The notes under the pieces are model-generated. The model saw nothing but the letters and a program-made list of their open reading frames with translations, was not told the DNA's origin and did no database searches. A stretch of DNA of 64,000 nt, taken from Saccharospirillum sp. GTDB taxonomy: Bacteria; Pseudomonadota; Gammaproteobacteria; Pseudomonadales; Natronospirillaceae. Within the stretch, counting starts at the first letter, position 1, and every line of letters starts with the position of its first letter. The translations under genes and the position numbers were made by a program. Shown one piece after another: positions 2,042 through 57,324 of the stretch. Location of the stretch: the NCBI GenBank assembly GCA_018402545.1, contig JAGYIL010000001.1, positions 62,001 to 126,000 of the forward strand, in the 5' to 3' direction.

Positions 2042-2168
2042 GTGTCAGCTGCCGGGTAGGCTTAGCCGGGGTAGTCCGCAACAAGGATGCTGCGGTCTAG
2101 GCCCCATGGATGGGTTGAGTGGGCGGCACTCCGCCCGACCCCGGCTAAGCCTACCCGGTGGCCGACAC
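2042..2168. repeat. Three-stem intergenic palindrome, copy 1 (long variant)
   Basis: The outer arms 2042-2072 and 2137-2168 are complementary over about 30 bp. Inside sit a hairpin around 2078-2094 (GCAGCA, loop AGGA, TGCTGC, with a mismatch at the loop) and a second around CCCATGGATGGG at 2103-2114. This copy carries about 14 extra bases forming a third hairpin (GGGCGG-CACT-CCGCCC, 2120-2135). It lies between the EamA gene and the hydroxy-acid dehydrogenase gene. Confidence 0.85.
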
Positions 2169-2226
2169 GACCCCAGTGGCAGTGAATGTAACGAGCCTGG
2201 ATTCTTAGTTTAAGGAAGTGTGTTTC

Positions 2227-3381
2227 ATGGCAAAGCCCTGTGATGTTCTCGATTATCAGCGACTGGCCCGTCGTCGGGTTCCTCGGATGTTTTACGATTA
2301 TGCAGACTCCGGTTCCTGGTCCGAGTCGACTTACCGGGCGAATGCATCGGATTTTGACAAGCTGAAATTTCGTCAGCGTGTCGCCGTTGATATGAGTGAT
2401 CGTAATCTTGAAACCACCATGGTTGGCCAGACAGTGTCGATGCCATTGGCGCTGGCGCCGACGGGGTTGACCGGCTTGCAATGGGCTGATGGTGAAATTC
2501 ATGCTGCCCGGGCGGCGGAGAAAGCCGGCGTTCCGTTTACGTTGTCGACCATGAGTATTTGTTCGATTGAGGATGTGGCTGCGCATACCTCCAAGCCGTT
2601 CTGGTTTCAGCTGTATGTGATGCGCGACCGGGATTTTATTGGCCGGTTGATTGACCGTGCCAAAGCTGCCGGATGTAGCGCCCTGGTCGTGACGCTGGAT
2701 CTTCAGATTCTGGGTCAGCGCCATAAAGATGTGCGTAATGGCCTCAGTGCCCCACCGTCGTTTAGTCTCAATAGCTTGTTACAGATTATGGCAAAACCCG
2801 GCTGGGCAATGCGTATGCTGGGCACCAAACGGCGTGGTTTTGGCAATGTAATTGGGCATGTCAAAGGGATCGAGAACATGACCTCGCTGTCGGAATGGTC
2901 GGCCAAGCAGCTGGACCCGAAATTGTCTTGGGATGACATCGCCTGGATCAAAGAGCGCTGGGGTGGGCCAATTATTCTTAAGGGAATTATGGACCCCGAA
3001 GACGCCAAACTGGCGGTAAAAACCGGCGCCGATGCCATTGTTGTGTCTAATCATGGGGGGCGTCAGCTTGATGGAGCACCCTCCACGATTGAAGTGCTGC
3101 CTGCAATTCTGGATGCGGTCGGTGATGACATGGAAGTTCATATTGATGGCGGAATTCACACCGGGCAGGCGATGTTGAAAGCACTGTGTCTCGGTGCCAA
3201 ATCCACCTATATTGGCCGGCCTTTCTTGTACGGTCTTGGCGCGGCCGGTGAAGCCGGTGTGAGTGATGTATTGCGAATTTTAAGGAATGAACTGGATGTC
3301 AGTTTGGCGCTGTGCGGCGAACGTGATATTCAGAAGGTCGGGCGCCATAACCTCTATAACCCGGATGTCTTCTCGCGTTAA
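2227..3381 (+). CDS. FMN-dependent alpha-hydroxy-acid dehydrogenase (L-lactate dehydrogenase-like)
   Basis: A 384-residue TIM-barrel flavoenzyme of the LldD/glycolate-oxidase family, which oxidises L-2-hydroxy acids to 2-oxo acids. The N-terminal Y-Q-R-L-A-R-R-R-V-P and F-Y-D-Y-A-D-S-G segments are typical. The active-site signature S-N-H-G-G-R-Q-L-D-G starts at residue 274, so His276 is the expected proton-abstracting base. The phosphate-binding I-D-G-G and Y-I-G-R-P segments follow. I choose the ATG at 2227 because AAGGAAG ends 9 bp upstream; the GTG at 2218 is too close. Lactate is the commonest substrate, but mandelate or other hydroxy acids are possible. Confidence 0.88.
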   Translation: MAKPCDVLDYQRLARRRVPRMFYDYADSGSWSESTYRANASDFDKLKFRQRVAVDMSDRNLETTMVGQTVSMPLALAPTGLTGLQWADGEIHAARAAEKAGVPFTLSTMSICSIEDVAAHTSKPFWFQLYVMRDRDFIGRLIDRAKAAGCSALVVTLDLQILGQRHKDVRNGLSAPPSFSLNSLLQIMAKPGWAMRMLGTKRRGFGNVIGHVKGIENMTSLSEWSAKQLDPKLSWDDIAWIKERWGGPIILKGIMDPEDAKLAVKTGADAIVVSNHGGRQLDGAPSTIEVLPAILDAVGDDMEVHIDGGIHTGQAMLKALCLGAKSTYIGRPFLYGLGAAGEAGVSDVLRILRNELDVSLALCGERDIQKVGRHNLYNPDVFSR

Positions 3382-4136
3382 CCAAAAATACCCAGGTACA
3401 GAAGTCGTGCGGCCATCAGGGTCAGCACGACCTTCAGAATCGGTTGCACCTGTTCGGCGGTAAAGCGTTCCAGAAAAATCCGCCCGGTGAGTGTGCCGAG
3501 GTAACCGGTGATCAGCATCAGGGCGATCATCAAATACCATTCAGTAAACACAAAGCCGAAAAAGCCAAAGAACACGACCTTCAGTAATTGCTGGCCACTG
3601 ATCATGGCCGCCAGGGTGCCGACCAGTGCAGTGCGCTCGGCAAACATCGATTTGATGGCGGCAAAGACAAAGGGTGCGACACCGCCGACGATCATGCCAA
3701 TAAAAGAGGTAACACCACCGAGCAGTGAAATGAATTTCCGGCCGGCGGGTAACGCAACAGTCGGAAACCAGGCGGTGTATAAAATAAAAGCCCCCATGGC
3801 GATTTGCAGGCCTTCCCCGGGCAAGCGCGTGGCGGCGCCCGCGCCGACGACCGAGCCAGCGAGGCTGCCGATGGAAAACCACAGCACCAGGCGCCAGTCG
3901 ACAAAGCGGTGCAACGTTGTTAATCGCCCTAGGTTGGAGCCAAGCTGCACCACGCCATGAACCGGAATGACCGCAGTGGCTGGCAGCAGGTTGGCCATGA
4001 TCGACAGCAGGGTGATGCCGCCACCGATTCCCAGCGCGGCGGTAATGGCTGAGGTCAGGTAGCTAACGAATACCAGGCTCCAGAACGCCAGTGCGCTCAG
4101 GGAATCCGGCATCCATTGGGTAAAGTGAACCAGCAT
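3378..4136 (-). CDS. TauE/SafE family membrane protein
   Basis: A 252-residue hydrophobic protein with seven to eight predicted helices and two glycine-rich TauE/SafE repeats: G-I-G-G-G-I-T-L-L near residue 37 and I-G-M-I-V-G-G-V-A-P near residue 145. Members export or import small sulfur- or carbon-containing anions such as sulfite, sulfoacetate or taurine-derived sulfite. Its stop codon overlaps that of the convergent dehydrogenase gene by 4 bp, leaving no room for a separate terminator between them. No sulfur-metabolism neighbour indicates the substrate. Confidence 0.85.
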   Translation of the reverse strand: MLVHFTQWMPDSLSALAFWSLVFVSYLTSAITAALGIGGGITLLSIMANLLPATAVIPVHGVVQLGSNLGRLTTLHRFVDWRLVLWFSIGSLAGSVVGAGAATRLPGEGLQIAMGAFILYTAWFPTVALPAGRKFISLLGGVTSFIGMIVGGVAPFVFAAIKSMFAERTALVGTLAAMISGQQLLKVVFFGFFGFVFTEWYLMIALMLITGYLGTLTGRIFLERFTAEQVQPILKVVLTLMAARLLYLGIFG

Positions 4137-4186
4137 GGTTAAAGGGCCCGTGTGACAATCAGAGCGCCATTGTACACTGCCAGGTG

Positions 4187-4717
4187 TTATTTGATGTGAG
4201 CCAGAACGTTCCGGAATTGTGGATGGTCAGCCCGGCCCAGCCATTCAAAAGCTACCATCTCAGTTGAAACAATATCGGCCCCTTGCTGCCGCAATCGCTG
4301 CAGCGCCAGTTCCCGGTTGGCAGGCAGCCGGGAGCCTACCGCATCGGCGACGACCCAGACCCGAAAGCCTGCGTCCAGCAAACCCAAAGAGGTTTGCAGC
4401 ACACAGATATGAGCTTCACAGCCACCAAGAATGACGTGTGTCCGGTGATCTTCTAACGCATTTAGCAGGCCGCTCTCGCAGGCATCGAAGGTATTCTTGT
4501 GCAGCGTTTGCTGGCAGTGCTGATAAATTCGATCGTCATTGGGCCCAAGCTTGTCGGGCGTTTGCTCGGTCCCGATAACGGGTACATCCAGCAACCCGGC
4601 AATAGTAGCCAGGGTGAGGGCCCGCTCAACCACCGCTTCGCCATCGCTGATTGCAGGCAAAAGCCTGCCCTGAAAATCGACCAGAACCAGGGTGGATTTT
4701 GCGGCTGACATTAGCAT
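4187..4717 (-). CDS. Isochorismatase-family cysteine hydrolase
   Basis: A 176-residue protein of the isochorismatase-like fold. The expected triad can be placed as Asp14 (L-V-D-F-Q-G), Lys74 (L-H-K-N-T-F-D-A-C) and Cys105 (E-A-H-I-C-V). Proteins of this short type, related to YcaC and nicotinamidases, hydrolyse amides or imides; isochorismate itself is unlikely without siderophore genes nearby. An AGGAG sequence sits 7 bp before the ATG at 4717, supporting this start over the in-frame ATG at 4711. It is separated by 50 bp from the TauE gene on the same strand. Confidence 0.85.
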   Translation of the reverse strand: MLMSAAKSTLVLVDFQGRLLPAISDGEAVVERALTLATIAGLLDVPVIGTEQTPDKLGPNDDRIYQHCQQTLHKNTFDACESGLLNALEDHRTHVILGGCEAHICVLQTSLGLLDAGFRVWVVADAVGSRLPANRELALQRLRQQGADIVSTEMVAFEWLGRADHPQFRNVLAHIK

Positions 4718-4808
4718 TATGGGGCTCCTTCGGGTCGATTTTGCCTAAGCAAGATTGGTTTGACGTTCATATTAGGGTGGAGATTCGTGTTTTACCACCA
4801 AGTACATT

Positions 4809-5417
4809 CCGTTCAGGGTGAGCCTGTCGAGCTCCCTTGGGGATATGGGCAAGCCGGTGAATGGTTGTGTGCTCCCCAAGGCCCTTCGACAGGCTCAGGG
4901 CGAACGGGGGTGGGCTGAGGTGGTACGGATCCTTATTCCGTTCGGGGTGAGCCTGTCGAACCCCCTTGGGGATATGGGTAAGCCGGTGGATGGTTTTGCT
5001 CCCCAAGGCCCTTCGACAGGCTCAGGGCGAACGGGGGTGGTCTGAGGTGGTACCGATCCTTAATCCGTTCGGGGTGAGCCTGTCGAACCCGTTTGGGGAT
5101 TGGGGTTAACCGGTGGGTGGTTGTGTTCCCCAAGGCCCTTCGACAGGCTCAGGGCGAACGGGGGTGGGCTGAGGTGGTACGGATCCTTAATCCGTTCGGG
5201 GTGAGCCTGTCGAACCCGTTTGGGGATTGGGGTTAACCGGTGGGTGGTTGTGCTCCCCAAGGCCCTTCGACGGGCTCAGGGCGAGCGGGGGTGGTCTGAG
5301 GTGGTACGGTTCATTATTCCGTTCGGGGTGAGCCTGTCGAACCCCCTTGGGGATATGGGTAAGCCGGTGGATGGTTTTGCTCCCCAAGGCCCTTCGACAA
5401 GCTCAGGGCGAACGGGG
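4809..5417. repeat. Five-unit tandem array of REP-type palindromes
   Basis: Units begin at 4809, 4938, 5065, 5192 and 5319, giving a period of 127-129 bp. Each unit is an imperfect palindrome: it opens with CCGTTCGGGGTGAGCCTGTC and closes with CTTCGACAGGCTCAGGGCG followed by AACGG. An inner pair (TTGGGG / CCCCAA) flanks a variable centre, and GGTGGTNCGGATCC-like spacers separate units. This is the widespread proteobacterial repeat with the CTGAGCCTGTCGAAGGG core. Such arrays are usually linked to transcription termination, mRNA protection or repeat mobility. Confidence 0.92.
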
Positions 5418-5421
5418 GATG

Positions 5422-5703
5422 CTATTGCTTGCTTTTCGCCAGCTCCTTTAGCAGACCCCAGTCCCCGTTTATCAATGCAATCTTCTTCTTTCTGCTCCAG
5501 CCTTTTATCCTGAGCTCCATCTTCAAGGCTTCCAATCGAGTTGGAAACGCGTCGCTAAAAACACAGGTAACAGGCCTACGATTGAACGTATAACAGTTGG
5601 GATCCGAGCCCGTTTTGTGCTGGAGTATCCGGTATTCAAGATTATCCGTGTGGCCCGTGTAATAGCTATTGTCGGAGCATTCTAGAAGGTAAACAAAGAA
5701 CAT
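5422..5703 (-). CDS. GIY-YIG domain nuclease
   Basis: A 93-residue single-domain protein of the GIY-YIG endonuclease superfamily. The opening V-Y-L-L-E-C-S-D-N-S-Y-Y-T-G-H-T carries the two tyrosine motifs. The R-I-L-Q-H segment supplies the conserved Arg, and the A-L-K-M-E-L-R-I-K-G helix supplies the metal-binding Glu. Members cleave DNA, but the role of these short stand-alone forms is not established. The stop codon lies only 4 bp beyond the end of the five-unit REP array, so the gene and array are adjacent with no other sequence between. Confidence 0.88.
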   Translation of the reverse strand: MFFVYLLECSDNSYYTGHTDNLEYRILQHKTGSDPNCYTFNRRPVTCVFSDAFPTRLEALKMELRIKGWSRKKKIALINGDWGLLKELAKSKQ

Positions 5704-5765
5704 GGTCTTCTCGGACGCTTTTTAATGACTATAGATTGATTGCCAAAAGAAGACCGTGCTGTCAG

Positions 5766-6527
5766 TCACACCAACAAATACCCCCCATCCACATTGACCA
5801 CGCTGCCGGTGGTGTAGCTGCTGGCATCGCTGGCCCAATATAGCACCTGGCCGGTCATTTCTTCCGGCTCGGCCGCGCGGCGCATCGGGATGTGTGGCAT
5901 CACCTGTTTCATCATGTCCGGGTTGTCGGTAATGGCGCTGGCAAACTTGGTTTTGGTCAGGCCGGGTAACAGGCAGTTCACGCGAATATTGTGGCGGGCC
6001 CACTCTTTGGCGTGGGCTTTGGTCATGGCGATCACGGCTGATTTGGTGATCGAGTACACGCCCTGGAAATCACCCGGGATCACACCATTGACCGAGGCGA
6101 TGTTGATGATGCTGCCGCCGGTTTTTTTCATCGACTGCCCAACCAGATTGGTCATGTAGAAATAGCCGCGAATGTTTACTTCCAGTGTTTTATTGAAGGC
6201 GTCTAGCGGTGTCTGGTCGATCGGGCCGAAGTAGGGGTTGGCTGCTGCGTTGTTGACCAGAATATCGATCTTGCCATGCTGTTCCAACAGGGTTTGAACG
6301 GTCAGTTCCATGGCGTGAAGGTCACCTATGTGGCACGCCGCCGCTTCCCCTTTACCGCCTTTCGCTTTTATTTCGTCAACCACGTCGGCGCAAGCCTCGG
6401 CCTTGCGGCTGGTGACGATGACATAGGCGCCCTGGTCGGCCAGTGCATGGGCAATGGCGGCACCGATGCCTTTGCTGGCGCCAGTGATCAGGGCAATTTT
6501 TCCGGTTAAGTCAAAAGGGTTGGTCAT
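5766..6527 (-). CDS. SDR-family oxidoreductase (last gene of the 4-hydroxyacyl-type operon)
   Basis: A 253-residue classical short-chain dehydrogenase/reductase. The NAD(P)-binding T-G-A-S-K-G-I-G is at residues 15-22, N-N-A-A at 92-95, and the catalytic Ser145, Tyr158 and Lys162 are in place. Gly-Gly-Tyr near the C terminus is typical of the family. It lies 43 bp after the histidine-phosphatase gene, so it is probably the last gene of the five-gene operon. It may act on a hydroxyacyl-CoA or free hydroxy/keto acid intermediate; substrate and cofactor preference are inferred from context only. Confidence 0.87.
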   Translation of the reverse strand: MTNPFDLTGKIALITGASKGIGAAIAHALADQGAYVIVTSRKAEACADVVDEIKAKGGKGEAAACHIGDLHAMELTVQTLLEQHGKIDILVNNAAANPYFGPIDQTPLDAFNKTLEVNIRGYFYMTNLVGQSMKKTGGSIINIASVNGVIPGDFQGVYSITKSAVIAMTKAHAKEWARHNIRVNCLLPGLTKTKFASAITDNPDMMKQVMPHIPMRRAAEPEEMTGQVLYWASDASSYTTGSVVNVDGGYLLV

Positions 6528-6570
6528 GGTTGCTCCGTTTTTATTTGAGCTGATGTCAGTGTGACGGCCA

Positions 6571-7245
6571 TTAATGAAACGTCAGCCAGTCGGGTTGGTC
6601 GATAAAGTGCTGAGTCTGGTTCATGCCTTGCAGGCGCCATTGGCCCCGTTGCGATGCAAGAGTGGTGACGGAGGCATTGTGCAAACCCAGGTTGATGCGC
6701 ATGGCTGCGGCGGCATCCAGTTTCAGCGCCTGGCAAACCAGGGCGGATATCACCCCGCCCGAGGTGAATATCCAGTGTGTTTTATCGTCATCCAGTGTCG
6801 ACAGCGCAGCGGCGGTTCGGGTGTTAAAGTCGGTCCAGCTTTCGGTGTAGGGCGCATCGGTGCCGGCATCAATCCAGCGCTCAAGTGCACCGCGAAACAC
6901 GGATAAAAACGCCCGGCCGGGGTGATCTTCGTGTCCCAGGTCCTGTTGCATTTGGGCCGGGTCCTGCCAGTCGGGGCGGTGCTGGCGAACGATGTCGAGA
7001 AAGTCGAATTCGTTCCAGCGGGCATCGGCGGTCGCGGCCACCTTGTCACCGATCTGCTCGGCAAAAGCCGACTCGCTCTGACGCTGACGCACCAGAGTGC
7101 CGCTGTGGCGCAGGGCCGGCTGCCAATAGGGCCGGTAGTAGTTGGCAAGATGCTGAATCTGCAATCGGCCCAGCGCACTCAACGAATCGTAATCGAGAAT
7201 GTCACGTGAGGCCTGGCCATGTCTTACCAGATAAACGGTGGCCAT
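6571..7245 (-). CDS. Histidine-phosphatase (phosphoglycerate mutase-like) protein
   Basis: A 224-residue member of the histidine phosphatase superfamily. Arg8-His9-Gly10 supplies the phospho-accepting histidine, and an acidic N-E-F-D-F motif follows at residues 78-82. The position that normally carries the second catalytic histidine (S-H-G-G) reads T-S-G-G at residues 161-164, so the active site is atypical and may be slow, altered or non-catalytic. Its ATG overlaps the stop of the upstream kinase gene as TAATG, implying translational coupling. Pairing with a kinase suggests control or repair of a phosphorylated acyl intermediate. Confidence 0.82.
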   Translation of the reverse strand: MATVYLVRHGQASRDILDYDSLSALGRLQIQHLANYYRPYWQPALRHSGTLVRQRQSESAFAEQIGDKVAATADARWNEFDFLDIVRQHRPDWQDPAQMQQDLGHEDHPGRAFLSVFRGALERWIDAGTDAPYTESWTDFNTRTAAALSTLDDDKTHWIFTSGGVISALVCQALKLDAAAAMRINLGLHNASVTTLASQRGQWRLQGMNQTQHFIDQPDWLTFH

Positions 7246-10359: not shown

Positions 10360-10420
10360 GGTGGTTCCCGTCAGCAGAGGCTTGCTTGCAGTCTAGCCAA
10401 GGTCCACGTATAAAAAGAAT

Positions 10421-10440: not shown

Positions 10441-10463
10441 TATTAACCAAATGAATAGTTACC

Positions 10464-11699: not shown

Positions 11700-11723
11700 G
11701 ATCCAAACCTCCTGTTGCTGGTT

Positions 11724-12767: not shown

Positions 12768-12769
12768 GG

Positions 12770-21807: not shown

Positions 21808-22434
21808 ATGATACGCCCCCTGAGCGCTGTGCCAAGGCACGGCATCACATTTTTGCTGGCTCTTTACTTCGGGTCTGCCCTAGCCGAGCCGTTGCCGCTT
21901 GAGGCAATAGATACCTGGGCGGAGCACAGCTTCGAAGGTGAGGCGCGGTTTGAGTGGCTCGCCGACGAGGCGTGCCTGCGCATTAGGTCTGACAATACGG
22001 CCTCGGCGCGAATTTGGGAGCAGGAGGTTGAACTCGACAACAGCACCCGGATTCGCTGGCGCTGGCGCGCGGAGCAGGACATTGCCGGGGTCACCCGGCA
22101 GGAAAAACCCGGAGATGATTTTGCCGGCCGCATTTACGTGGCGGTTGAGCACCCGCTGTTTTTCTGGCGCTCACGGGTGCTGGCCTATGTACACGCCAGT
22201 GAAGTGGACATAGACACCCACTGGCCGAATCCCTTTACCAGCCAGTTTCACATGTGGGTGGTCAGCAATGGCGACTCGGGCGACTGGCACCGCATCGAAC
22301 GGCGTATCCTCGATGACTGGGAGATAGCCTTCGGCGACCGGCCCGACCACTTTGACGCCATCGGCCTAAAGGCCGATTCTGATAACAGCAGCCAGCAAAC
22401 CGATTTGTGCCTGGCCGATCTTGAAGTGCAATGA
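21808..22434 (+). CDS. DUF3047 domain secreted protein
   Basis: A 208-residue protein with an N-terminal signal peptide (cleavage likely after A-L-A at about residue 26) and a DUF3047 domain: W-R-W-R-A-E-Q-D, D-D-F-A-G-R-I-Y-V and a late D-D-W-E-I-A-F-G segment. DUF3047 proteins are periplasmic, with a jelly-roll-like predicted fold and unknown function. GGAGTAAC precedes the ATG at 21808. It diverges from the DUF3299 lipoprotein with only 53 bp between starts, so the two may be co-regulated. Confidence 0.85.
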   Translation: MIRPLSAVPRHGITFLLALYFGSALAEPLPLEAIDTWAEHSFEGEARFEWLADEACLRIRSDNTASARIWEQEVELDNSTRIRWRWRAEQDIAGVTRQEKPGDDFAGRIYVAVEHPLFFWRSRVLAYVHASEVDIDTHWPNPFTSQFHMWVVSNGDSGDWHRIERRILDDWEIAFGDRPDHFDAIGLKADSDNSSQQTDLCLADLEVQ

Positions 22435-22484
22435 CGGTTGGATGTCAGGTTTCTGAGTTCGGTTCACCTCAAAGGCGTTGGCCC

Positions 22485-22597
22485 GCACCGGATGCCGGGT
22501 ATGCCTCTGTGGGGTCGGCGTTAATCCTTCCATGGAGCCTAGGCCGCAGCATCCCTGCTGCGGACTACCCCACAGAGGCATACCCGGCACCCGGTGC
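22485..22597. repeat. Three-stem intergenic palindrome, copy 2 (113 bp, inverted orientation)
   Basis: The outer arms start GCACCGGATGCCGGGTATGC and end in the complementary sequence at 22568-22597. The inner stem GCAGCA/TGCTGC encloses a TCCC loop instead of TCCA, and the second arm is TCCATGGA-centred. Weak complementarity continues outside the core (TTTCTGAGTTCGG upstream, CTCCGAAACTTG downstream). It lies between the DUF3047 and DUF2244 genes. Confidence 0.88.
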
Positions 22598-22658
22598 TAG
22601 TCTCCTGAGCAAACTCCGAAACTTGATTTAGGCGAGTTAAAGAGGAGTCGTAAAACGA

Positions 22659-25154: not shown

Positions 25155-25269
25155 GCTCTGGAAGTCGGGTACGGCCCTGGCGGGTCGCTGCAAGTACTTC
25201 CATGTAAGCTCGGCGGTCCCCATCCATGGGGACCGACGCCCCGCCAGCACCGCACCCGACCCCCAGAGC
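25155..25269. repeat. Three-stem intergenic palindrome, copy 3 (115-bp subtype)
   Basis: The outer arms GCTCTGGAAGTCGGGT and ACCCGACCCCCAGAGC enclose further complementary sequence (CCTGGCGGG / CCCGCCAGC). Inside are a TCCA-loop arm (TACTTCCATGTA) and a long arm CGGTCCCCA-TCCA-TGGGGACCG. The same subtype recurs in inverse orientation at 32414-32528 with compensating base changes. Confidence 0.85.
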
Positions 25270-25344: not shown

Positions 25345-25457
25345 GTGCAGGGTGTTGGGTGAGCCTTTCCGGGGAAGTCCGCAGCATGGATGCTGCGGTC
25401 TAGGCCCCATGGAAGGGTTCACGCCGACCCCGGAAAGGCTTACCCGACGCCTTGCAC
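25345..25457. repeat. Three-stem intergenic palindrome, copy 4 (113 bp)
   Basis: The outer arms begin GTGCAGGGTGTTGGGT and end in the complement at 25457. The inner stem GCAGCA-TGGA-TGCTGC is followed by CCCCATGGAAGGG and the constant TTCACGCCGACCCC segment. It lies 71 bp before the second acyl-CoA dehydrogenase gene. Confidence 0.88.
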
Positions 25458-28324: not shown

Positions 28325-28437
28325 GTGCTGGCTGCCGGGTGTGCTTATCCGGGGTAGTCCGTAGCATGGATGCTACGGTCTAGGCCCCATGGATGGGTTC
28401 ACGCCGACCCCGGATAAGCACACCCGGTGGCCAGCAC
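28325..28437. repeat. Three-stem intergenic palindrome, copy 5 (113 bp)
   Basis: The outer arms begin GTGCTGGCTGCCGGGTGTGC and end with the complement GGCCAGCAC. The inner stem reads GTAGCA-TGGA-TGCTAC, a compensated change relative to GCAGCA/TGCTGC in other copies. It sits between the liuB and liuC genes, inside what would otherwise be one operon. Confidence 0.9.
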
Positions 28438-32194: not shown

Positions 32195-32303
32195 GGGGGT
32201 GCCGGGTAGGCCTTTTGCGGACACGCCGTGAACCCATCCGTGGGGGCTCGAAGATCACATCCATGTGATCTCACGGTCCGAAAAAGGCCTACCCGTCACC
32301 CCC
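32195..32303. repeat. Three-stem intergenic palindrome, copy 6 (divergent subtype)
   Basis: The outer arms begin GGGGGTGCCGGGTAGGCC and end with GGCCTACCCGTCACCCCC. The inner arms are AGATCACA-TCCA-TGTGATCT and CCCA-TCCG-TGGG. Complementarity extends outside the core (TTGAGCTGCTTGGGAGG at 32171 against CCTGAAGCCGCTCAA at 32303-32317). Confidence 0.85.
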
Positions 32304-32413: not shown

Positions 32414-32528
32414 GCGATGGGTGTTGGGTGCAGCCTTGGCGGGGCGTCGGTCACCATGGGTGGTGACCGCCGAGCTTACACGGACGTACTTGCAGCGACC
32501 CGCCAAGGCTGTACCCAGCGCCCATCGC
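32414..32528. repeat. Three-stem intergenic palindrome, copy 7 (115-bp subtype, inverse of copy 3)
   Basis: The outer arms GCGATGGGTGTTGGGT and ACCCAGCGCCCATCGC enclose CGGTCACCA-TGGG-TGGTGACCG. The stem differs from copy 3 (CCCC/GGGG there, CACC/GGTG here) but pairs fully. It lies between liuE and the bkd operon. Confidence 0.87.
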
Positions 32529-36469: not shown

Positions 36470-36498
36470 AGGTAAAAACGCAGGCGTTTGGGTAGGAT

Positions 36499-36596
36499 CC
36501 CGTTCGCCCTGAGCCTGTCGAAGGGCCTTGGGGAGCATGACCAATCACAGGTTAAAGTGCGTCCCCAAGGGGGTTCGACAAGCTCACCCCGAACGG
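36499..36596. repeat. REP-type palindrome after bkdB
   Basis: It opens with CCGTTCGCCCTGAGCCTGTC and closes with TTCGACAAGCTCACCCCG plus AACGG, with inner CTTGGGG/CCCCAAG arms. It is the same family as the array at 4809-5417 but in the opposite orientation. A partial fragment (CCGAACGGAATTGGGG) follows near 36626. It lies between the convergent ends of bkdB and the nitroreductase gene and may terminate both. Confidence 0.88.
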
Positions 36597-36665
36597 AATG
36601 GAGAGTGGTGGCAATTCAATCCACTCCGAACGGAATTGGGGAGGATGGCACCTCAGTCCGCTCGC

Positions 36666-38296: not shown

Positions 38297-38422
38297 GCCC
38301 TCGGCACTGACCGTGTCACTGCAGGGCGTCTGCAGCATGGATGCTGCAGTCGAGCCCCCATGGATGGGTCTACGGCGCCGAAACGTCGGACCGCCCGCAG
38401 GGGCACGGTCAGTGTCGAGGGC
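38297..38422. repeat. Three-stem intergenic palindrome, copy 8 (long variant)
   Basis: The outer arms begin GCCCTCGGCACTGACCGTG and end GGTCAGTGTCGAGGGC. The inner arms are CTGCAGCA-TGGA-TGCTGCAG and CCCATGGATGGG. An extra segment near 38372-38396 can fold as a further arm, as in copy 1. It sits between convergent genes. Confidence 0.85.
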
Positions 38423-40051: not shown

Positions 40052-40164
40052 GTGTCGGCAACCGGGTTGACCCTTCCGGGGTCGGCGTAAACTCATCCAT
40101 GAGGCCTAGACCGAAACATCCATGTTTCGGACTTCCCCGGAAGGGTCAACCCGGTCACCGCCAC
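40052..40164. repeat. Three-stem intergenic palindrome, copy 9 (113 bp)
   Basis: The outer arms GTGTCGGCAACCGGGTTGAC and the complement ending GTCACCGCCAC enclose CCGAAACA-TCCA-TGTTTCGG. Here the inner stem has changed to AAACA/TGTTT with full pairing kept. It is 65 bp upstream of the GNAT-nitrilase start. Confidence 0.9.
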
Positions 40165-40288: not shown

Positions 40289-40401
40289 GTGTCAGGTGCT
40301 GGGTATCCCTGTCTGGGGAAGTCCGCAGCAAGGATGCTGCGGTCTAGGCCCCATGGACGGGTTCACGCCGGCCCCAGACAGGGATACCCAGTGCCTGGCA
40401 C
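40289..40401. repeat. Three-stem intergenic palindrome, copy 10 (113 bp)
   Basis: The outer arms begin GTGTCAGGTGCTGGGTATCC and end in the complement GTGCCTGGCAC. The inner stem GCAGCA-AGGA-TGCTGC has one loop change. The flanks GAGTTCGGCGTTT and AACCCGAACTCCG are partly complementary. It lies 54 bp after the NnrU stop codon (minus strand). Confidence 0.88.
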
Positions 40402-40454
40402 GGGCTCTTGGCACCAAAGCAAACCCGAACTCCGAAACTTGCGCTGTAGAAAAC

Positions 40455-42285: not shown

Positions 42286-42314
42286 CCCCAAGGCCCTTCG
42301 ACAGGCTCAGGGCG
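42286..42314. repeat. Left half of a REP palindrome split by the IS element
   Basis: CCCCAAGGCCCTTCGACAGG continues as CTCAGGGCG, then breaks at 42314. The missing continuation AACGGGGGTGG is found at 43707 on the other side of the IS. Confidence 0.9.
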
Positions 42315-42330
42315 TATATGGTCTCCTCCC

Positions 42331-42593
42331 ATTGTGCAAGCAACTTCGTTGATGTGTTTTCAGGTTTGCTGTCGTATATCCGGCCTGTTCTCGAGGCTTA
42401 GCCTCTGGCCTTGATGATAATGCGCGCATATTGTCCTATACGAACGGTCGGCCTCTAAAGCCATCGCCCTGATCAGGTTTTCAATATGCCGGTCTGACCT
42501 GTGTCACATCAATGTCTGTTACTTACGCAACCTGGGACGTGCTCTCCTTCTTTCAACGTGCTCGGTTTGCAGGTTAGTCTGTTTGCAGTCAGG
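42331..42593 (-). ncRNA. Candidate bridge/seekRNA of the IS1111-type element
   Basis: This non-coding end lies downstream of the transposase, where IS1111 elements encode their guide RNA. It contains TCGCCCTGA at 42464-42472, the reverse complement of the target's left half TCAGGGCGA, and CGAACGG at 42441-42447, identical to the target's right half. Together they read the REP site with an overlap at the core. TCGTATAT at 42372-42379 equals the IS end junction (T-CG-TATAT), a likely donor guide. A nested hairpin (GGCC...GAGGC-TTA-GCCTC.GGCC, 42382-42410) separates the loops. Exact RNA ends are unknown. Confidence 0.75.
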
Positions 42594-43658
42594 TTAACCC
42601 GCAGGCTGGTAGGATTTGCCCCGGGCTACAATCACCCAAGCCACCCGTACCAGTTTGTTGACCAGCGCCACAACCGCTTTGTTAAAGCCTCGTCGCGCAA
42701 CTAGGCTCTGTATCCATTGACTGAGCCGATCGTCTTTCCCCCTTTTGACGGCCGCCGCCACAACGGCTCGACACCCGTGTACCATGGCCGCTCTCAGGTT
42801 TGGATCACCGCGCTTGGTAATGCCGTAAAGGGACTCCCGCCCGCCCGTGCTGTATTGACGGGGCACAACTCCCAGGGCGGCTGACGCATCTCGCCCCCGA
42901 CTGAACTGGTGTCCATTGCCCATCCAGCACGCCAGCTGACTGCTTACAACAGGGCCAACTCCCGGCAGTTCCATTAACTTCTGACAAACCGGGTTTTGTT
43001 TGACCTGCTCATTCAAACACCGATCAAACCAGTCCAGTTCTTCTTGTAACGCCAGCCAATGTTGATAACGTCGATGCAGCAGTTCTCTGAACCGGGGGCT
43101 TAGCCCATTCTCCGCGTCTTCCAATACCCAGGGGATTTCCTTGCGGAACGAAGCGACCCCTTGCGCAATGACCAGTCCATACTCAGACAGCAACCCTCGC
43201 ATCTGATTGATCAGACCCGTTTGATCCTGCTTCAAGCGATTACGGATTCGGTGGAATGCCTGGTCGTCCTGGTGATCCTGTGTCTTGACCTGGACCGGTC
43301 GAATCCTGCCATGTTGGCAAGCCTCGGCAATCGCCAGTGCATCATTGCGGTCGTTCTTTTGACCACGCAGATAGCCTTTTACATGTTGGCTTGGCAATAA
43401 CTGTACAGCTCGCCCGGCCGCTTGCAGCGTTCTGGCCAGGTGGTGTGCTCCAGAGCAGGCTTCCATGGCAATCACATCAACGTCGGCATTCATCAGGTAC
43501 TCGAGTACCTGCTGGCGTCTCAACGTGCGTTGGCGCACCTGCTTTCCATGCCCATTCAAAATAGCCGCTTGAAAGGAGTTCTTTGCCAAATCCAAGCCTA
43601 ATACGCTAATGTTGTTCACGGTCTCCTCCACTCTTTTGATTGTTGTCTTCAACTCCAA
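42594..43658 (-). CDS. IS110-family transposase
   Basis: A 354-residue recombinase. The N-terminal RuvC-like DEDD domain has its Asp in G-L-D-L-A-K-N-S-F, Glu in A-M-E-A-C-S-G-A-H-H, and two Asp in K-N-D-R-N-D-A-L. A coiled-coil middle leads to a C-terminal Transposase_20 domain with L-P-G-V-G-P-V-V-S-S-Q-L, and the catalytic serine is probably in Q-Y-S-T-G-G-R-E-S-L. The enzyme uses a guide RNA to choose its target. All domains look intact, so the element may be active. Confidence 0.95.
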   Translation of the reverse strand: MELKTTIKRVEETVNNISVLGLDLAKNSFQAAILNGHGKQVRQRTLRRQQVLEYLMNADVDVIAMEACSGAHHLARTLQAAGRAVQLLPSQHVKGYLRGQKNDRNDALAIAEACQHGRIRPVQVKTQDHQDDQAFHRIRNRLKQDQTGLINQMRGLLSEYGLVIAQGVASFRKEIPWVLEDAENGLSPRFRELLHRRYQHWLALQEELDWFDRCLNEQVKQNPVCQKLMELPGVGPVVSSQLACWMGNGHQFSRGRDASAALGVVPRQYSTGGRESLYGITKRGDPNLRAAMVHGCRAVVAAAVKRGKDDRLSQWIQSLVARRGFNKAVVALVNKLVRVAWVIVARGKSYQPAG

Positions 43659-43741
43659 TCATGGCACATTGTGATGCCGCTTGAGGGGGAGGAGACCATT
43701 CCATCGAACGGGGGTGGGTATGAATTGCCATCGTTCCAATT

Positions 43742-43838
43742 CCGTTCGGGGTGAGCTTGTCGAACCCTCTTGGGGCTTGGGTCTGGCCGGTGGTTGGTTA
43801 TGCTCCCCAAGACCCTTCGACGGGCTCAGGGCGAACGG
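43742..43838. repeat. REP-type palindrome beside the IS element
   Basis: A complete unit (CCGTTCGGGGTGAGCTTGTC to CGACGGGCTCAGGGCG plus AACGG). Together with the split copy it forms a two-unit tandem REP, so the IS entered one unit of a REP pair after azlD. Confidence 0.9.
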
Positions 43839-43881
43839 ATGGGTAGGTTGGTGTTTTGTCGGGCTGGGAGTGATGTAGTAT

Positions 43882-44467: not shown

Positions 44468-44580
44468 GTGCAGGCTGCCGGGTATCCCGATCCGGGGAAG
44501 TCCACAACATGGATGTTGTGGTCTAGGCCCCATGGATGGGTTAACGCCGACCCCGGATCGGGATACCCGGTGGCCTGCAC
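44468..44580. repeat. Three-stem intergenic palindrome, copy 11 (113 bp)
   Basis: The outer arms begin GTGCAGGCTGCCGGGTATCC and end with GGTGGCCTGCAC. The inner stem is CACAACA-TGGA-TGTTGTG, another fully compensated variant. It lies between the marR start and the TRAP large-permease stop (both minus strand); the rest of this 324-bp gap shows no gene. Confidence 0.9.
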
Positions 44581-50124: not shown

Positions 50125-50133
50125 GGGGGCATC

Positions 50134-50901: not shown

Positions 50902-50905
50902 TGTC

Positions 50906-52669: not shown

Positions 52670-52739
52670 GCTTTTTGTCATGAGTTCGTTACGGCGCACG
52701 GGTATGCCTTTGCAGGGTTGGCCTTATTGCTATGAGTTC

Positions 52740-52852
52740 GTGCCAACTGCCGGGTTGGTCTATCCGGGGTCGGCGTGAACCCGTCCATGGGGCCTAGGCT
52801 TCGGCATCCATGCCTAAGACTACCCCGGATAGACCAACCCGGCAGCTGTCAC
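52740..52852. repeat. Three-stem intergenic palindrome, copy 12 (113 bp, inverted)
   Basis: The outer arms begin GTGCCAACTGCCGGGTTGGTC and end with the complement CAGCTGTCAC. The inner arm CTTCGGCA-TCCA-TGCCTAAG has one mismatch. It lies 70 bp after the acyl-CoA dehydrogenase stop. Confidence 0.87.
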
Positions 52853-52936
52853 TTGGATTGGTGGCAACATTTCATCTGAAAGATCGAATAGTTTTTCACG
52901 AGGTTTTAGAAAAATTTTAGGTTGGCAATTGATGCA

Positions 52937-53042
52937 GGGTTGCAGGGGCGTTTCACGCAGTAGCGGGCAGGAAGCCCGCGTGCCGGTTGGTGGCACAGGG
53001 ATGTGCCTGCAAGCGGTACGGAGTGAAGCGGGCCTGCAACCC
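52937..53042. repeat. Three-stem intergenic palindrome, copy 13 (divergent subtype)
   Basis: The outer arms are GGGTTGCAGGGGCGTTTCAC and GTGAAGCGGGCCTGCAACCC. Inside are GCGGGC-AGGAA-GCCCGC and GGCACA-GGGA-TGTGCC. The sequence is unlike the main type, but the three-stem layout with NGGA loops is the same. It lies about 100 bp before the CoA-ligase gene, directly after copy 12. Confidence 0.75.
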
Positions 53043-53140
53043 GAACGACGGCCACCGAATAATATTCAACGTTAACCACAGTAACCACGAAGGCTCAAAA
53101 TAAAAAAGAGCCGGGTGACTTAAAATAAGAAGGTGAGGAC

Positions 53141-54985
53141 ATGGCAACAGGTTACCGCGATATTGAGATTGGTCGGGCGACAGCCCGGTTGACGAAGCGT
53201 TCCGATGGCACTCAGTTGCTGGAAACCGAAGAGCAACTGCCAGCCTATCCCGATACGCTGATCGAGCGATTGGATCACTGGGCAAGCGTGGCGCCAGACC
53301 GGGTGTTTGTGGCTGAGCGTAATGGCGAGGGTGAATGGGCGCCGGTCAGTTATGGTGAAACGCTGCAGCGGGTTCGTTCGCTTTCGCAGGCGTTGTTGGA
53401 TATGGGGCTGTCGCCCGAGCGGCCACTTGCGATTTTGAGTGGCAATAGCACCGAGCATTTATTGCTGGCGCTGGCGGCCATGTATGTGGGTATTCCCTAT
53501 GCGCCCTTGTCTCCGGCTTATTGTCTGATCAGCAAGGATTTTGGTAAGGCAAAATACATTTGTGATCTGCTGACACCGGGTGCTTATCTTGTGGATAAGG
53601 CCGCTGACTACGGTGATGCGCTGAATGCGATTGCAGCCGACGATGCTGAAGTCATTGCCATTGATTCAACCGGCTATGCCGTTGGGGCGCTCGCATTTGA
53701 AAGCTTGCTGGCTACCCCGGTTACTGATGCCGTCGACAAGGCTCACGCGGTGCTGACACCCGATACCATTGCCAAATTTCTGTTTACCTCTGGTTCTACC
53801 GGTATGCCCAAGGGTGTGATCAACACCAACCGCATGCTGGCCTCGAATCAGGAAATGCTCGCTGGTGTTATGCCGTTTCTGAAAAAAGAGCCACCGGTTT
53901 TGCTCGACTGGTTGCCCTGGAACCATACCTTTGGTGGTAACCACAATGTGGGCATTGTGTTGTACAACGGTGGTACCTTATACATCGATGATGGCAAGCC
54001 GACGCCGGCGTTGTTTGAACGCACCATTCGCAACCTTCAGGAAATATCGCCAACGGTATATTTCAATGTGCCCAAGGGGTTTGAGCTTCTGGCCGATCGC
54101 CTTGAACAAGACGCTGCGTTGCGCGACCGCTTCTTCCGTGATCTGAACCTGATGTTTTTTGCCGGCGCTGGCCTTGCCCAGCATGTGTGGGACAAGCTGG
54201 ATAATCTGGCCATTAAATCCATTGGCGCCAAGATTGGCATGCTGACCGGTCTGGGCGCGACAGAGACGGCGCCTTCGGCGATGTTTGCCTCGCTGGAAGA
54301 ATCTCAGTCCGGTGTGATTGGGTTGCCGGCGCTGGGTGTGTCGGTAAAGCTGGTGCCGAACGGCGGCAAGCTTGAATGCCGGGTCAAAGGCCCGAATGTG
54401 ATGCCGGGTTACTGGCGTCAGCCGGAAGTGACCGCCAAGGTCTTTGATGACGAAGGCTTCTATTGTTTGGGCGATGCCGCCAAGTTTATCGACCCGGACA
54501 ACCCTCAACGCGGCATGAAATTCGATGGTCGCATCTCCGAAGATTTCAAACTCGATACCGGTACCTGGGTTAGTGTCGGGCCGCTGCGTGCGCGAATCAT
54601 CGACACCGGTGCGCCTGTGGTGCAGGACGTTGTAATCGCCGGGCTCGACCGGGCCTTTGTGTCCGCGCTGGTGTTTCCCGAGCGGGAGCAGTGCCGGCTG
54701 CTGGCGGGTCTGGATGCAGACGCCGACATCGACGAGGTGGTGAAGCATCCCGCCGTGATTGAACGGTTCAAGCAATTGTTGCGTGATCTCAAAGCCAGCA
54801 GCACGGGCAGCTCGAACCGGGTTGAACGGCTGGTGCTGCTCACTGAATTGCCGCGTCTCGATGCCCATGAAATTACCGACAAAGGCTCGATCAACCAGCG
54901 CGCCGTTCTGGAAAACCGCGCCGCTGTCGTTGATGACATCTACCAGTCTGTCCCGTCCGCCGCTGTTATTAAACTCACCGATTAA
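53141..54985 (+). CDS. Feruloyl-CoA synthetase-like AMP-forming CoA ligase
   Basis: A 614-residue adenylate-forming enzyme. The P-loop is F-T-S-G-S-T-G-M-P-K-G-V (about residues 211-222). W-L-P-W-N-H-T-F-G-G-N-H-N and G-L-G-A-T-E-T-A-P resemble feruloyl-CoA synthetases, and a C-terminal domain ends in D-K-G-S-I-N-Q with the catalytic Lys. It would activate ferulate, p-coumarate or a related acid with ATP and CoA. The start follows GAAGGTGAGG. Two palindromic elements separate it from the upstream beta-oxidation genes. Confidence 0.88.
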   Translation: MATGYRDIEIGRATARLTKRSDGTQLLETEEQLPAYPDTLIERLDHWASVAPDRVFVAERNGEGEWAPVSYGETLQRVRSLSQALLDMGLSPERPLAILSGNSTEHLLLALAAMYVGIPYAPLSPAYCLISKDFGKAKYICDLLTPGAYLVDKAADYGDALNAIAADDAEVIAIDSTGYAVGALAFESLLATPVTDAVDKAHAVLTPDTIAKFLFTSGSTGMPKGVINTNRMLASNQEMLAGVMPFLKKEPPVLLDWLPWNHTFGGNHNVGIVLYNGGTLYIDDGKPTPALFERTIRNLQEISPTVYFNVPKGFELLADRLEQDAALRDRFFRDLNLMFFAGAGLAQHVWDKLDNLAIKSIGAKIGMLTGLGATETAPSAMFASLEESQSGVIGLPALGVSVKLVPNGGKLECRVKGPNVMPGYWRQPEVTAKVFDDEGFYCLGDAAKFIDPDNPQRGMKFDGRISEDFKLDTGTWVSVGPLRARIIDTGAPVVQDVVIAGLDRAFVSALVFPEREQCRLLAGLDADADIDEVVKHPAVIERFKQLLRDLKASSTGSSNRVERLVLLTELPRLDAHEITDKGSINQRAVLENRAAVVDDIYQSVPSAAVIKLTD

Positions 54986-54995
54986 GGATCCCCCC

Positions 54996-55412
54996 ATGCT
55001 CATTAACCGACACACACAAACCATCGAATGGGGTGATTGCGACCCGGCCGGCATCGTGTTTTACCCGCGTTATTTTGCCTACTTCGATGCCTGCACCGGC
55101 AAACTCTTTGCCAAAGCCGGTTTTCCAAAGTTCGATATGCTGAAGCAGTTCAATATTGTCGGTATTCCCATGGTCGATACACGCTCGAAATTTTATATCC
55201 CGTCGCACTTCGGCGAAGAAGTGGTGATTGAATCGACCATTACCGAATTCCGGCGCAGCAGTTTCGATGTACATCACCGTATTTTGAAAGGCGATGCTCT
55301 GGCCGTCGAAGGGTTCGAAACCCGCGTCTGGGTTGGTAAAGACCCGGAAGATCCCGACAAGATCAAATCCCAGCCCATTCCGCAGGAAGTGCTGCGAGCT
55401 TTCAACGTCTGA
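54996..55412 (+). CDS. Acyl-CoA thioesterase (4-hydroxybenzoyl-CoA thioesterase family)
   Basis: A 138-residue hotdog-fold thioesterase. The catalytic Asp16 is in W-G-D-C-D-P-A-G-I-V-F-Y-P, the signature of the 4-hydroxybenzoyl-CoA thioesterase group. It is 10 bp after the CoA ligase. In a beta-oxidative hydroxycinnamate route the thiolase yields 4-hydroxybenzoyl- or vanilloyl-CoA, and this enzyme would release the free benzoate. The larger open frame from 54759 is not used because it overlaps the ligase gene. Confidence 0.9.
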   Translation: MLINRHTQTIEWGDCDPAGIVFYPRYFAYFDACTGKLFAKAGFPKFDMLKQFNIVGIPMVDTRSKFYIPSHFGEEVVIESTITEFRRSSFDVHHRILKGDALAVEGFETRVWVGKDPEDPDKIKSQPIPQEVLRAFNV

Positions 55413-55447
55413 ATTGTCGTCTCTATAAAAACAAAAAGGAGATTTCT

Positions 55448-57106
55448 ATGAGCGTAAAACGCACACTGCTGGCCAGCCTGCTTGCCGCTGGTACTGCACC
55501 CGCATTCGCCGCAGGCCTGGCCTGCACGAATGACAGCATTGGAGCCCTGGAAAGCGCCGATCTGTCGATCAGCCAAATCGAAACCGTCGCCGCTGGTGAC
55601 GACTTCGCCGTCGACCATTGCCGCATTCTGGGGGCCGCCCACGCTCCCACCGGGGCCGATGGCAAAGACTATCAGATCAGTTTCGAACTGCGCTTGCCCA
55701 ACGACTGGAACCAGCGCTTCGTCCACCAGTTCAATGGCGGCAACGACGGCGCGGTTGTCCCCGCCGTGGGTGAACTGAAAGGCGGCGATGAATCCGACAC
55801 CGCCCTGAACCGCGGCTATGCCGTGGTTTCCAGCGATGCCGGCCACGCCGGCGATGCCAACCCCGATGCGGGCCTGGCCGGTGGTGCCCGCTTTGGTTTT
55901 GACCCTGAAGCCCGTCGTGATTACGGCTATTCCGCCGTCAGCAAACTGCACCCGCTGGCAACTGAAATGGTAGAAACCTATTACGACAACAGCATCGACT
56001 ACACCTACGGCGTCGGTGGTTCCAACGGCGGGCGTCATGCCATGGTCGCCGCCTCGCGCATGCCCGAAGCCTTCGATGGCTTGCTGGTCGGCTACCCCGG
56101 CTTCAACCTGCCCCGGGCCGCAGTGCAACATGCCTGGGATATTCAGGCATTCAAAGCCATCAACGGCGACGTAAGAACCGCCTTCAGCCGTGAGCAATTA
56201 ATAGCCGTAGCCGACGGTATCGCCCAGGCCTGTGATTCGCTGGACGGACTCGAAGACGGCTACATCGCCGACACCGATGCCTGCCAGTCAGCCTTCAACA
56301 TCGAATCCCTGCAATGCGATGCCGCCATGGCGGGTAACTGCCTGAGCAAAGCCCAGGTAGCCGCCCTCAAGGCCATTCACAACGGCCCGGTTAACTCCCA
56401 GGGCGTGCCCCTGTACAGCGACTGGCCCTGGGACATCGGCATCGGCTCTGGCGACTGGCGCTTCTGGAAACTCGAAACCCCGATTCCACCCTGGAACAAC
56501 CAACCCCTGATCGGCGTTATGGGTTCCGCCTCTCTGGCGCAGCTGTTTACCACACCGCCCACCGAAGTAGCCGGCACCCCCCAGGCGCTCGAACAGTACC
56601 TGCTCGACTTCGACTTCGACAGCGACGCCCCGAAAATCTACGCCACCACCGACCGCTACCCCGAATCGGCCATGGACTACATGACCCCACCCGACTCGGA
56701 AAACCCAACCCTGGCCGACTTTAACGACCAGGGCGGCAAGATGCTGATCTTCCACGGCGTCAGCGACCCGGTGTTCTCCGTCAATGACACCACAAACTGG
56801 TACCAGAAACTCGATGCCAACAACAACGACGAGGCAGAAGCCTTCGCCCGCTACTACCGCGTCCCCGGTATGCCACACGGCGCCGGTGGCCCCACAGTGG
56901 ATGATTTCGACTTCTTCACCGCACTGGTTGAGTGGGTCGAACAGGGTAAGGCACCTGAAGCCGTTGTAGCAGGCGTAATGCCAGGCAATGACGATGCCAT
57001 GGCGCAACTGGGTCAGGTAGAGCGTAAACTTTGCCCCTACCCACAAGTAGCGAGATACACAGGTGGTAATGACGCTTCGGCTGCTAGCTTTGCGTGCGAA
57101 GAATGA
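55448..57106 (+). CDS. Secreted tannase/feruloyl-esterase family hydrolase
   Basis: A 552-residue exported hydrolase with a signal peptide cleaved near A-F-A at residue 21. The tannase/feruloyl esterase domain has the nucleophile Ser in G-V-G-G-S-N-G-G-R-H-A, the acid in F-H-G-V-S-D-P-V-F-S and the His in M-P-H-G-A-G-G. Several cysteines suggest disulfides. Members release ferulate, gallate or other aromatic acids from esters. It closes the cluster and would feed the TRAP transporter and CoA ligase. A phenolic-ester substrate is inferred. Confidence 0.88.
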   Translation: MSVKRTLLASLLAAGTAPAFAAGLACTNDSIGALESADLSISQIETVAAGDDFAVDHCRILGAAHAPTGADGKDYQISFELRLPNDWNQRFVHQFNGGNDGAVVPAVGELKGGDESDTALNRGYAVVSSDAGHAGDANPDAGLAGGARFGFDPEARRDYGYSAVSKLHPLATEMVETYYDNSIDYTYGVGGSNGGRHAMVAASRMPEAFDGLLVGYPGFNLPRAAVQHAWDIQAFKAINGDVRTAFSREQLIAVADGIAQACDSLDGLEDGYIADTDACQSAFNIESLQCDAAMAGNCLSKAQVAALKAIHNGPVNSQGVPLYSDWPWDIGIGSGDWRFWKLETPIPPWNNQPLIGVMGSASLAQLFTTPPTEVAGTPQALEQYLLDFDFDSDAPKIYATTDRYPESAMDYMTPPDSENPTLADFNDQGGKMLIFHGVSDPVFSVNDTTNWYQKLDANNNDEAEAFARYYRVPGMPHGAGGPTVDDFDFFTALVEWVEQGKAPEAVVAGVMPGNDDAMAQLGQVERKLCPYPQVARYTGGNDASAASFACEE

Positions 57107-57217
57107 TCAACTTATGACCGCTAAGATTCAAAGAAACTGGGTAGGTTTCAATTTGTAACCTCTGGCTCAACCGACATGGGTTAGAAATTCGAGATAACTT
57201 AACCTGAGATAACCTCA

Positions 57218-57324
57218 GGACCACCGGGTGCACCTATTGGGGGTCGTTAGACCGCATGGATGCGGTCTCCGAGCCTACATGGATGTATTCACGGCGTACC
57301 TCCAATAGGTGTACCCGGTGGTCC
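57218..57324. repeat. Three-stem intergenic palindrome, copy 14 (107-bp subtype with extended arms)
   Basis: The outer arms GGACCACCGGGTGCACC and GGTGTACCCGGTGGTCC enclose AGACCGCA-TGGA-TGCGGTCT and TACA-TGGA-TGTA. The flanks are also complementary: CATGGGTTAGAAATTCG at about 57175 pairs with CGAATTTCTAATCCATG at about 57369, so the palindrome spans over 200 bp. It lies between the esterase and RhlE genes. Confidence 0.88.

Follow-up and report, generated by a model that had tools for sequence, protein, structure and literature searches.

Dispersed copies of a short palindromic element occupy the spacers of the window, that is, the whole analysed stretch of 64,000 nucleotides from Saccharospirillum sp. 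(contig JAGYIL010000001.1). The reading that we favour, and consider probable, is that these are DNA-borne elements that encode a CsrA-binding RNA with a three-way junction, that spread in a transposon-like manner and that are kept by selection at the RNA level. The core of each copy (mostly 107-127 bp) would encode the RNA, in which a long outer stem of free sequence would support two hairpins, each with a CsrA hexaloop C[ANGGAX]G, placed such that one CsrA dimer could clamp both. The unit that spreads would be short, non-autonomous and transposon-like, with terminal inverted repeats near ACTCAAGTTTCGGAGTTCG, and after insertion the copies would stay under RNA selection. The likeliest action would be binding of CsrA, either through many scattered decoys that would buffer the free pool of CsrA or in cis, on the transcripts of which the copies are part. 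New are the presence of at least 150 copies in one genome, many of them with terminal inverted repeats, the arrangement in head-to-head pairs and the spread in the class.

Fold, covariation and one-strand bias

A sequence-only reading of the window had described 14 intergenic copies of one element with covarying stems. All 14 sites were read out and folded, and all coordinates proved correct. Thirteen of them form one family and were aligned in a single orientation, five after reverse complementing. The fourteenth (52937-53042) was not recovered at E-values up to 1 by a covariance model built from the other 13 copies; it has the same shape, and by eye its relatives make up a sister type (L153/L154). 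This covariance model (R1) was the sole model used throughout and no broader one was built, so that distant relatives are under-counted.

In the alignment of the 13 copies, an outer stem of ~31 bp encloses two inner hairpins in a three-way junction, in agreement with the stem of about 30 bp and the two hairpins read earlier. Hairpin 1 consists of two pairs, a mismatch and then eight to nine pairs, hairpin 2 of three pairs followed by four pairs with a 5-nt bulge on the 3' side. The conserved A between the hairpins and the conserved G after hairpin 2 are unpaired. Seven cores are exactly 113 bp long, as had been stated (22485, 25345, 28325, 40052, 40289, 44468 and 52740). The covariation was confirmed as well: double-sided changes occur at 37 of the 49 pairs, a number reached in none of 500 shuffles, and standard pairs fill 93.9% of the pair cells, falling to 38-40% when the partner was slid by one column.

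Searches of this and related genomes with R1 gave many further matches. In the source genome, all 150 candidates that were scored, out of 2241 first-look candidates, were matched at E 2e-19 or better, which gives at least 150 copies. A contiguous region of 464 kb contains 41 copies (one cut by the boundary of a stretch), to which the window contributes 13 and the following 400 kb the other 28. Extrapolation from this region suggests a total of ~300-375 copies in 4.25 Mb. The window holds a small part of the element family. One further stretch of this genome (L109), in which R1 had found nothing, was left out of one later analysis.

Earlier, two possible causes had been proposed: selection on a folded form, which could be RNA or cruciform DNA, and copying with repair of both arms. 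Counts of wobble mispairs narrow this to a fold of one strand. Pairs were counted in 74 cores from a set of 117 own-genome copies, namely those of 113 nt, which were chosen because they can be paired by position from the ends without an aligner. Of the outer-stem cells, 1908 were Watson-Crick pairs, 171 were G•T and 4 A•C, and 63 were of other kinds. Without two founder pairs that are wobbles in most copies, G•T cells numbered 83 and A•C cells 4; clustering at 85% identity, which left 34 representatives, gave 37 and 3 (binomial p 2e-8). For the terminal inverted repeats of these elements, which 25 of the 117 copies retain, the counts were 16 G•T and 15 A•C (83:4 versus 16:15, Fisher p 1.7e-7). 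It is thus the core that is held as a fold of one strand, and not the ends. Other genomes of the class provided 28 distinct copies, in which the outer stem gave 27 G•T and 3 A•C.

A cruciform DNA site, or correction from arm to arm by template switching, with no role for RNA, would fit the long near-perfect inverted repeats and also the four neighbouring pairs of hairpin 1 that changed together between the 25155 orthologues. However, both mechanisms would treat the two strands alike, whereas the outer stem is biased 83:4, and 37:3 after clustering. Both were rejected on this bias, which favours RNA over either of them, and we regard this explanation as highly improbable. A mutational strand bias behind the G•T excess was also judged unlikely, because the terminal repeats of the same copies show 16:15, a small sample. 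One strand's fold is thus maintained, most likely as RNA, though the wobble test by itself may be compatible with single-stranded DNA of that strand. The comparison of G•U with A•C, with an element's own terminal repeats as control, offers a simple means to discriminate one-strand fold selection from DNA palindromes.

Most of the window can be aligned to the sister genome G001, piecewise and at 73-85% identity; over 11 kb the two differ by ~18%. Six copies are orthologous in G001 by position and alignment. Among their 172 outer-stem pairs, 137 are unchanged, 15 have one-sided changes, 14 have two-sided Watson-Crick changes and 6 contain a mismatch. All 15 one-sided changes are between G•U and Watson-Crick pairs, and none involves A•C. 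Five of the orthologues together account for 145 pairs (117 same, 12 one-sided, 11 two-sided Watson-Crick, 5 with mismatch) and the sixth for 27 (20 same, 3 one-sided G•U and 4 two-sided, with a mismatch resulting from one of the latter). Three of these orthologous copies (25155, 32195 and 52740) are antisense to both neighbouring genes. These data indicate that copies probably remain under selection as a folded strand after insertion.

Hairpin tips and CsrA

The loops TGGA and TCCA noted before belong to the same element seen in opposite orientations, and a hexaloop ANGGAX closed by C-G reads better than a tetraloop. The CANGGANG tip is present in 69 of the 74 cores in hairpin 1 and in 70 in hairpin 2. 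The predominant tips are C-A-N-G-G-A-T-G in hairpin 1 and C-A-T-G-G-A-N-G in hairpin 2; variation is found mainly at N and at X, respectively, and the loops are among the most conserved parts of the element. At the second loop position of hairpin 1, 34 of the 74 cores have a G or an A. Two CANGGANG-type tips are also found in 27 of the 28 copies from other class genomes.

In PMC4005645, the high-affinity motif of CsrA/RsmE is described as a hexaloop ANGGAX directly on a stem. The review PMC7652899 gives the consensus RUACARGGAUGU for CsrA from systematic evolution of ligands by exponential enrichment (SELEX), with loops mostly of 6 nt, and states that CsrA bridges two sites at distances of 10-63 nt, best from about 18 nt onwards. 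The tips of the element likewise present GGA in an ANGGAX hexaloop on a stem, with two sites at bridging distance; in the 28325 copy the GGA triplets are 20 nt apart, within the published range. From this likeness the tips appear to be the published CsrA/RsmE hexaloop, and an RNA of the element is predicted to bind CsrA.

A csrA gene was found in all 38 genomes of the genus, family and order that were searched, with a single match in 31 of them, including the source genome, and residues 1-59 of its CsrA align to a solved CsrA chain. One genome of the same order (G035) has nine csrA matches alongside 61 element matches. R1 matches at E up to 0.001 occur in 21 of these 38 genomes (own included; 92 candidates scored per genome). 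In a set of 184 genomes of the class, searched with stricter filters and 19 candidates scored per genome, matches at E up to 1e-6 occur in 28 genomes (own included), in 27 of 165 genera and in 27 groups at family level. An exact core pattern matched five stretches, four of Saccharospirillum and one of Marinobacter persicus, with own-genome records possibly excluded. Plasmids, phages and viral contigs gave no match to a query of one copy and one exact pattern only.

Genomic setting and mobility

Genes were called from our own open reading frames and codon scores; gene starts are approximate, and partial overlaps at copy ends were not counted. No gene covers any of the 117 own-genome copies examined, which include the 13 of the window, and the intergenic position claimed earlier therefore stands; 52937 lies outside that set. 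Among 112 copies with neighbours assigned, 77 lie between co-directional genes (41 sense, 36 antisense), 29 are convergent and 6 divergent. The divergent spacers hold only these 6 copies, yet they comprise 37650 of ~156000 bases (spacers of at least 150 bp). Copies on the same strand as the upstream gene lie at a median of 70 nt from it, often soon after its stop codon.

This setting would suit a cis-acting element of messenger RNA, such as a stabiliser of the 3' untranslated region, a decay block or an attenuator, whose function would depend on the stem, the GGA tips being incidental: the copies are intergenic, often near stop codons, and rare in divergent spacers. However, the orientation between co-directional genes is unbiased (41 versus 36), and the outer-stem ratio of G•T to A•C, obtained for 72 of the 74 cores, is 45:3 in sense copies, 15:1 in antisense, 17:0 in convergent and 2:0 in divergent ones, such that antisense copies are biased as well. 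Moreover, the loops are highly conserved, and the six orthologous pairs keep CANGGANG at 23 of 24 tips, the exception being hairpin 1 of 32414 on the window side. We consider such an element quite unlikely.

Inverted repeats near ACTCAAGTTTCGGAGTTCG flank the intact copies. The terminal-repeat pattern is found 50 times in forward and 55 times in reverse orientation in this genome, against 0 and 0 for the control, and many of these repeats form inverted pairs spanning ~182-199 bp. A terminal helix scoring at least 13 is kept in 25 of the 117 copies. A second terminal type, near TGTCATGAGTTAGAAATTCG, bounds other copies, and in some the inverted repeat continues into locus-specific palindromes, which is compatible with insertion into hairpins. 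Terminal repeats only 86-107 bp apart were seen at G000:C1:1715150-1715235, 1597305-1597411 and 2714272-2714361 and in G001 at the 38297 locus; these are apparently copies that lost the palindromic core. In G096, near-identical copies (L228, L230) have exchanged flanks with respect to their inner hairpins, which looks like an inversion of the palindrome in place.

Some sites in G001 differ from the window. The 22485 element is missing together with short flanks, the spacer of 28325 carries a copy in the opposite orientation, and no copy was found at the 44468 site. In addition, copies closer than 450 bp to each other are arranged head-to-head in all 16 pairs from own-genome stretches and in 18 of 19 from other genomes. 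A shared divergent promoter was considered for these pairs, but no promoter excess was seen.

One region with two terminal repeats 1.3 kb apart holds an IS481-type transposase, which itself lies inside an element copy: at G000:C1:2714272-2715585 (L237, 773-2086) the IS481-type unit sits between hairpins 1 and 2, with CCTAGG flanking both sides. IS481 was rejected as the mobiliser, since the copy near C1:2714-2715 kb is interrupted by it.

Single-stranded DNA structures are used by other mobile or repeated sequences, of which attC and REP (repetitive extragenic palindromic) hairpins are examples. The element could likewise be a plain mobile palindrome, whose one-strand structure in single-stranded DNA is needed in transposition or replication and whose insertions are otherwise neutral. 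The terminal inverted repeats, the missing interval and the inverted orientation in the same spacer agree with this; a single-stranded DNA hairpin would also be expected to give a one-strand bias, as G-T is tolerated there, and no promoter was seen. In contrast to what neutral dead copies would do, the orthologues keep their pairing, with 15 one-sided G-U changes versus none to A-C, while the terminal repeats decay symmetrically. Furthermore, the tips match the consensus of an RNA-binding protein position by position. We therefore hold the plain palindrome to be unlikely, and prefer mobile elements that encode a CsrA-binding RNA.

Several observations speak against this preferred reading. The clear wobble bias is limited to the outer stem: hairpin 1 shows 5 G•T versus 3 A•C, hairpin 2 shows 3 versus 35 in the 74 cores, and the hairpins of copies from other class genomes 12 versus 7. 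All 35 A•C cells of hairpin 2 lie at loop A and X, which are unpaired under the CsrA reading, and the hairpins are too conserved to inform the test much. An earlier set from other genomes (A3, 30 rows) gave an outer stem of 37 versus 11; it contains reverse-strand echoes of the same copies, which an E-value cut excluded from sets A2 and A4. The terminal-repeat control is small, at 31 mispairs in 25 of the 117 copies, and the orthologue test covers six copies and one sister genome, with exchange between copies possible. With respect to CsrA, the 8-9 pairs of the hairpin 1 stem exceed most SELEX hairpins, which according to PMC7652899 have four or fewer contiguous pairs, very stable stems being thought unfavourable. 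GGA is lost from hairpin 1 of the 32414 copy. As csrA is also present in the 17 of 38 genomes without an R1 match (E up to 0.001), its presence does not discriminate. There is no promoter excess upstream of the copies or in pair spacers. T-runs downstream of the copies are less frequent (13 of 115) than A-runs (30 of 115), hence there is no sign of a terminator, and copies antisense to both neighbours would have no evident route of transcription. Finally, movement would depend on a transposase, and a scan by eye of the places of these terminal repeats, with one region examined more closely, revealed no autonomous partner that carries them. No target-site duplication is readable at 22485, the sole empty site examined, where the G001 flanks differ as well.

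The positions of all copies in the window and of features within them are collected below.

Table 1. Element copies and associated features in the window (positions counted from its first nucleotide).
Feature	Position	Strand	Length (bp)	Remarks
Element copy	2042..2168	+	127	14 extra nt in hairpin 2 bulge
Left terminal inverted repeat of 22485 copy	22445..22462	.		TCAGGTTTCTGAGTTCGG
Element copy	22485..22597	-	113	Interval 22430-22635 absent at same place in G001
Right terminal inverted repeat of 22485 copy	22609..22626	.		GCAAACTCCGAAACTTGA
Element copy	25155..25269	-	115	Orthologous in G001, four adjacent compensated pairs in hairpin 1
Element copy	25345..25457	+	113	Head-to-head with 25155; orthologous in G001
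Element copy	28325..28437	+	113	Top R1 match; opposite-orientation copy in same G001 spacer
Hairpin 1 tip of 28325 copy	28365..28372	+		CATGGATG (CANGGANG)
Hairpin 2 tip of 28325 copy	28388..28395	+		CATGGATG (CANGGANG), 23 nt after first tip
Element copy	32195..32303	-	109	Orthologous in G001
Element copy	32414..32528	+	115	Head-to-head with 32195; 95.7% identical in G001; hairpin 1 tip CATGGGTG, GGA lost
Element copy	38297..38422	+	126	Outer stem differs
Element copy	40052..40164	-	113	
Element copy	40289..40401	+	113	Head-to-head with 40052
Right terminal inverted repeat of 40289 copy	40425..40442	.		CCGAACTCCGAAACTTGC
Element copy	44468..44580	+	113	None found at this place in G001
Element copy	52740..52852	-	113	Orthologous in G001; sole RF01731 match in 20000-58000, 34.1 bits (cut-off 43)
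Sister-type element	52937..53042	+		Tips CAGGAAG and CAGGGATG; head-to-head with 52740; conserved in G001
Element copy	57218..57324	+	107	Length is the distance between stem ends; compensated changes in the G001 orthologue

Other repeats and a mobile gene were also observed in the window. A different palindromic repeat (CCCTTCGACAGGCTCAGGGCGAACGG and its complement) forms ten arms of alternating orientation at 4809-5415 and recurs at 36497-36599, a stretch that has relatives elsewhere in the genome. An IS110-family transposase gene lies at 42597-43658 (-), in a stretch that does not align to G001; ~42286-43852 is near-identical (97-98%) to G000 C1:1177866 and C4:221245. Behind a chemotaxis receptor gene, at 62971-63055, there is a 30-bp inverted repeat, 93% complementary, with 25 nt between its arms.

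Comparison with known RNA families and repeats

The family had not been recognised in the sequence-only reading, and at gathering cut-offs no Rfam family matched anywhere in the window, including RF00018, RF00166 and RF01731. It nevertheless resembles RF01731 (TwoAYGGAY). A relaxed search of 20000-58000 placed this model over the 52740 copy from end to end, below its cut-off, with both CAUGGAUG-type loops in register. Matches to mir-734, mir-9242, mir-3151 and Ysr224 were far under their cut-offs and were put down to chance resemblance with long or GC-rich stems. Among 32 genomes, 16 gave matches to RF01731 at E up to 0.01, and in 8, own genome included, a match exceeded the cut-off. The best match in the source genome (C6:287664, 49.6 bits) is of the sister type, and five of the eight matches there at E up to 0.01 coincide with R1 copies (62 of 151 candidates scored). 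At L166 1556-2596 (G001:C53), four successive CANGGANG motifs occur at ~270-470 bp spacing, and RF01731 matches three of them, in the two-hairpin middle only.

Like TwoAYGGAY, the 13 aligned copies have an outer stem followed by two adjacent hairpins with AYGGAY-type loops. In contrast to it, none of the window copies reaches the Rfam cut-off, hairpin 2 is shorter with a 5-nt bulge, the loop is not strictly AYGGAY (a strict Y is found in 40 of the 74 hairpin 1 tips), and the element is high-copy and interspersed, with terminal inverted repeats. Given a match below the cut-off and shared loops, the element is of the TwoAYGGAY kind but not a formal member by score; as judged from the sequence, TwoAYGGAY is the closest family, and the element would be a high-copy, transposon-like variant of that kind. 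In PMC4333381, TwoAYGGAY is proposed as a CsrA binder from motif matches, with reference to Clostridia, and a table of PMC2864571 places it in human gut, Gammaproteobacteria and Clostridiales. If our reading is true, it would hint at the nature of the TwoAYGGAY RNAs of Gammaproteobacteria.

The global regulator CsrA is believed to be titrated by a few small RNAs. Among these, CsrB/CsrC and RsmX/Y/Z are encoded at few loci and carry many sites each. The element shares with these sponge RNAs the presence of several GGA hairpins for CsrA/RsmA, but it differs from the CsrB/RsmZ type in having two sites per copy and at least 150 copies. The CsrB (RF00018) and RsmZ (RF00166) models were each over cut-off in none of 12 genomes. 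Matches to CsrB below its cut-off of 71 were seen in G020 (49.8 bits), G004 (32.6) and G001 (26.5), so that CsrB-like small RNAs are possible in these relatives; the source genome gave E 0.3. It is conceivable, though we put it at somewhat less than an even chance, that a mobile, genome-wide decoy set of hundreds of copies with two sites each, selected as RNA, buffers CsrA beyond the few CsrB-type small RNAs. If hundreds of mobile CsrA sites are indeed under selection, the Csr network has a dispersed, transposable layer. The sites of the element can be read straight from the sequence and are hence experimentally accessible. No description of interspersed CsrA-binding repeats was found in a literature search limited to partial coverage of titles and abstracts, with few subscription papers and no supplements.

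Finally, the element is short, intergenic and multi-copy and has terminal inverted repeats, as do miniature inverted-repeat transposable elements (MITEs) and the REPIN (REP doublets forming hairpins) and BIME (bacterial interspersed mosaic element) repeats. Its inverted pairs recall REPINs, which are inverted doublets. Unlike MITEs and REPIN/BIME, however, its interior is a fold under one-strand selection with CsrA-type tips.

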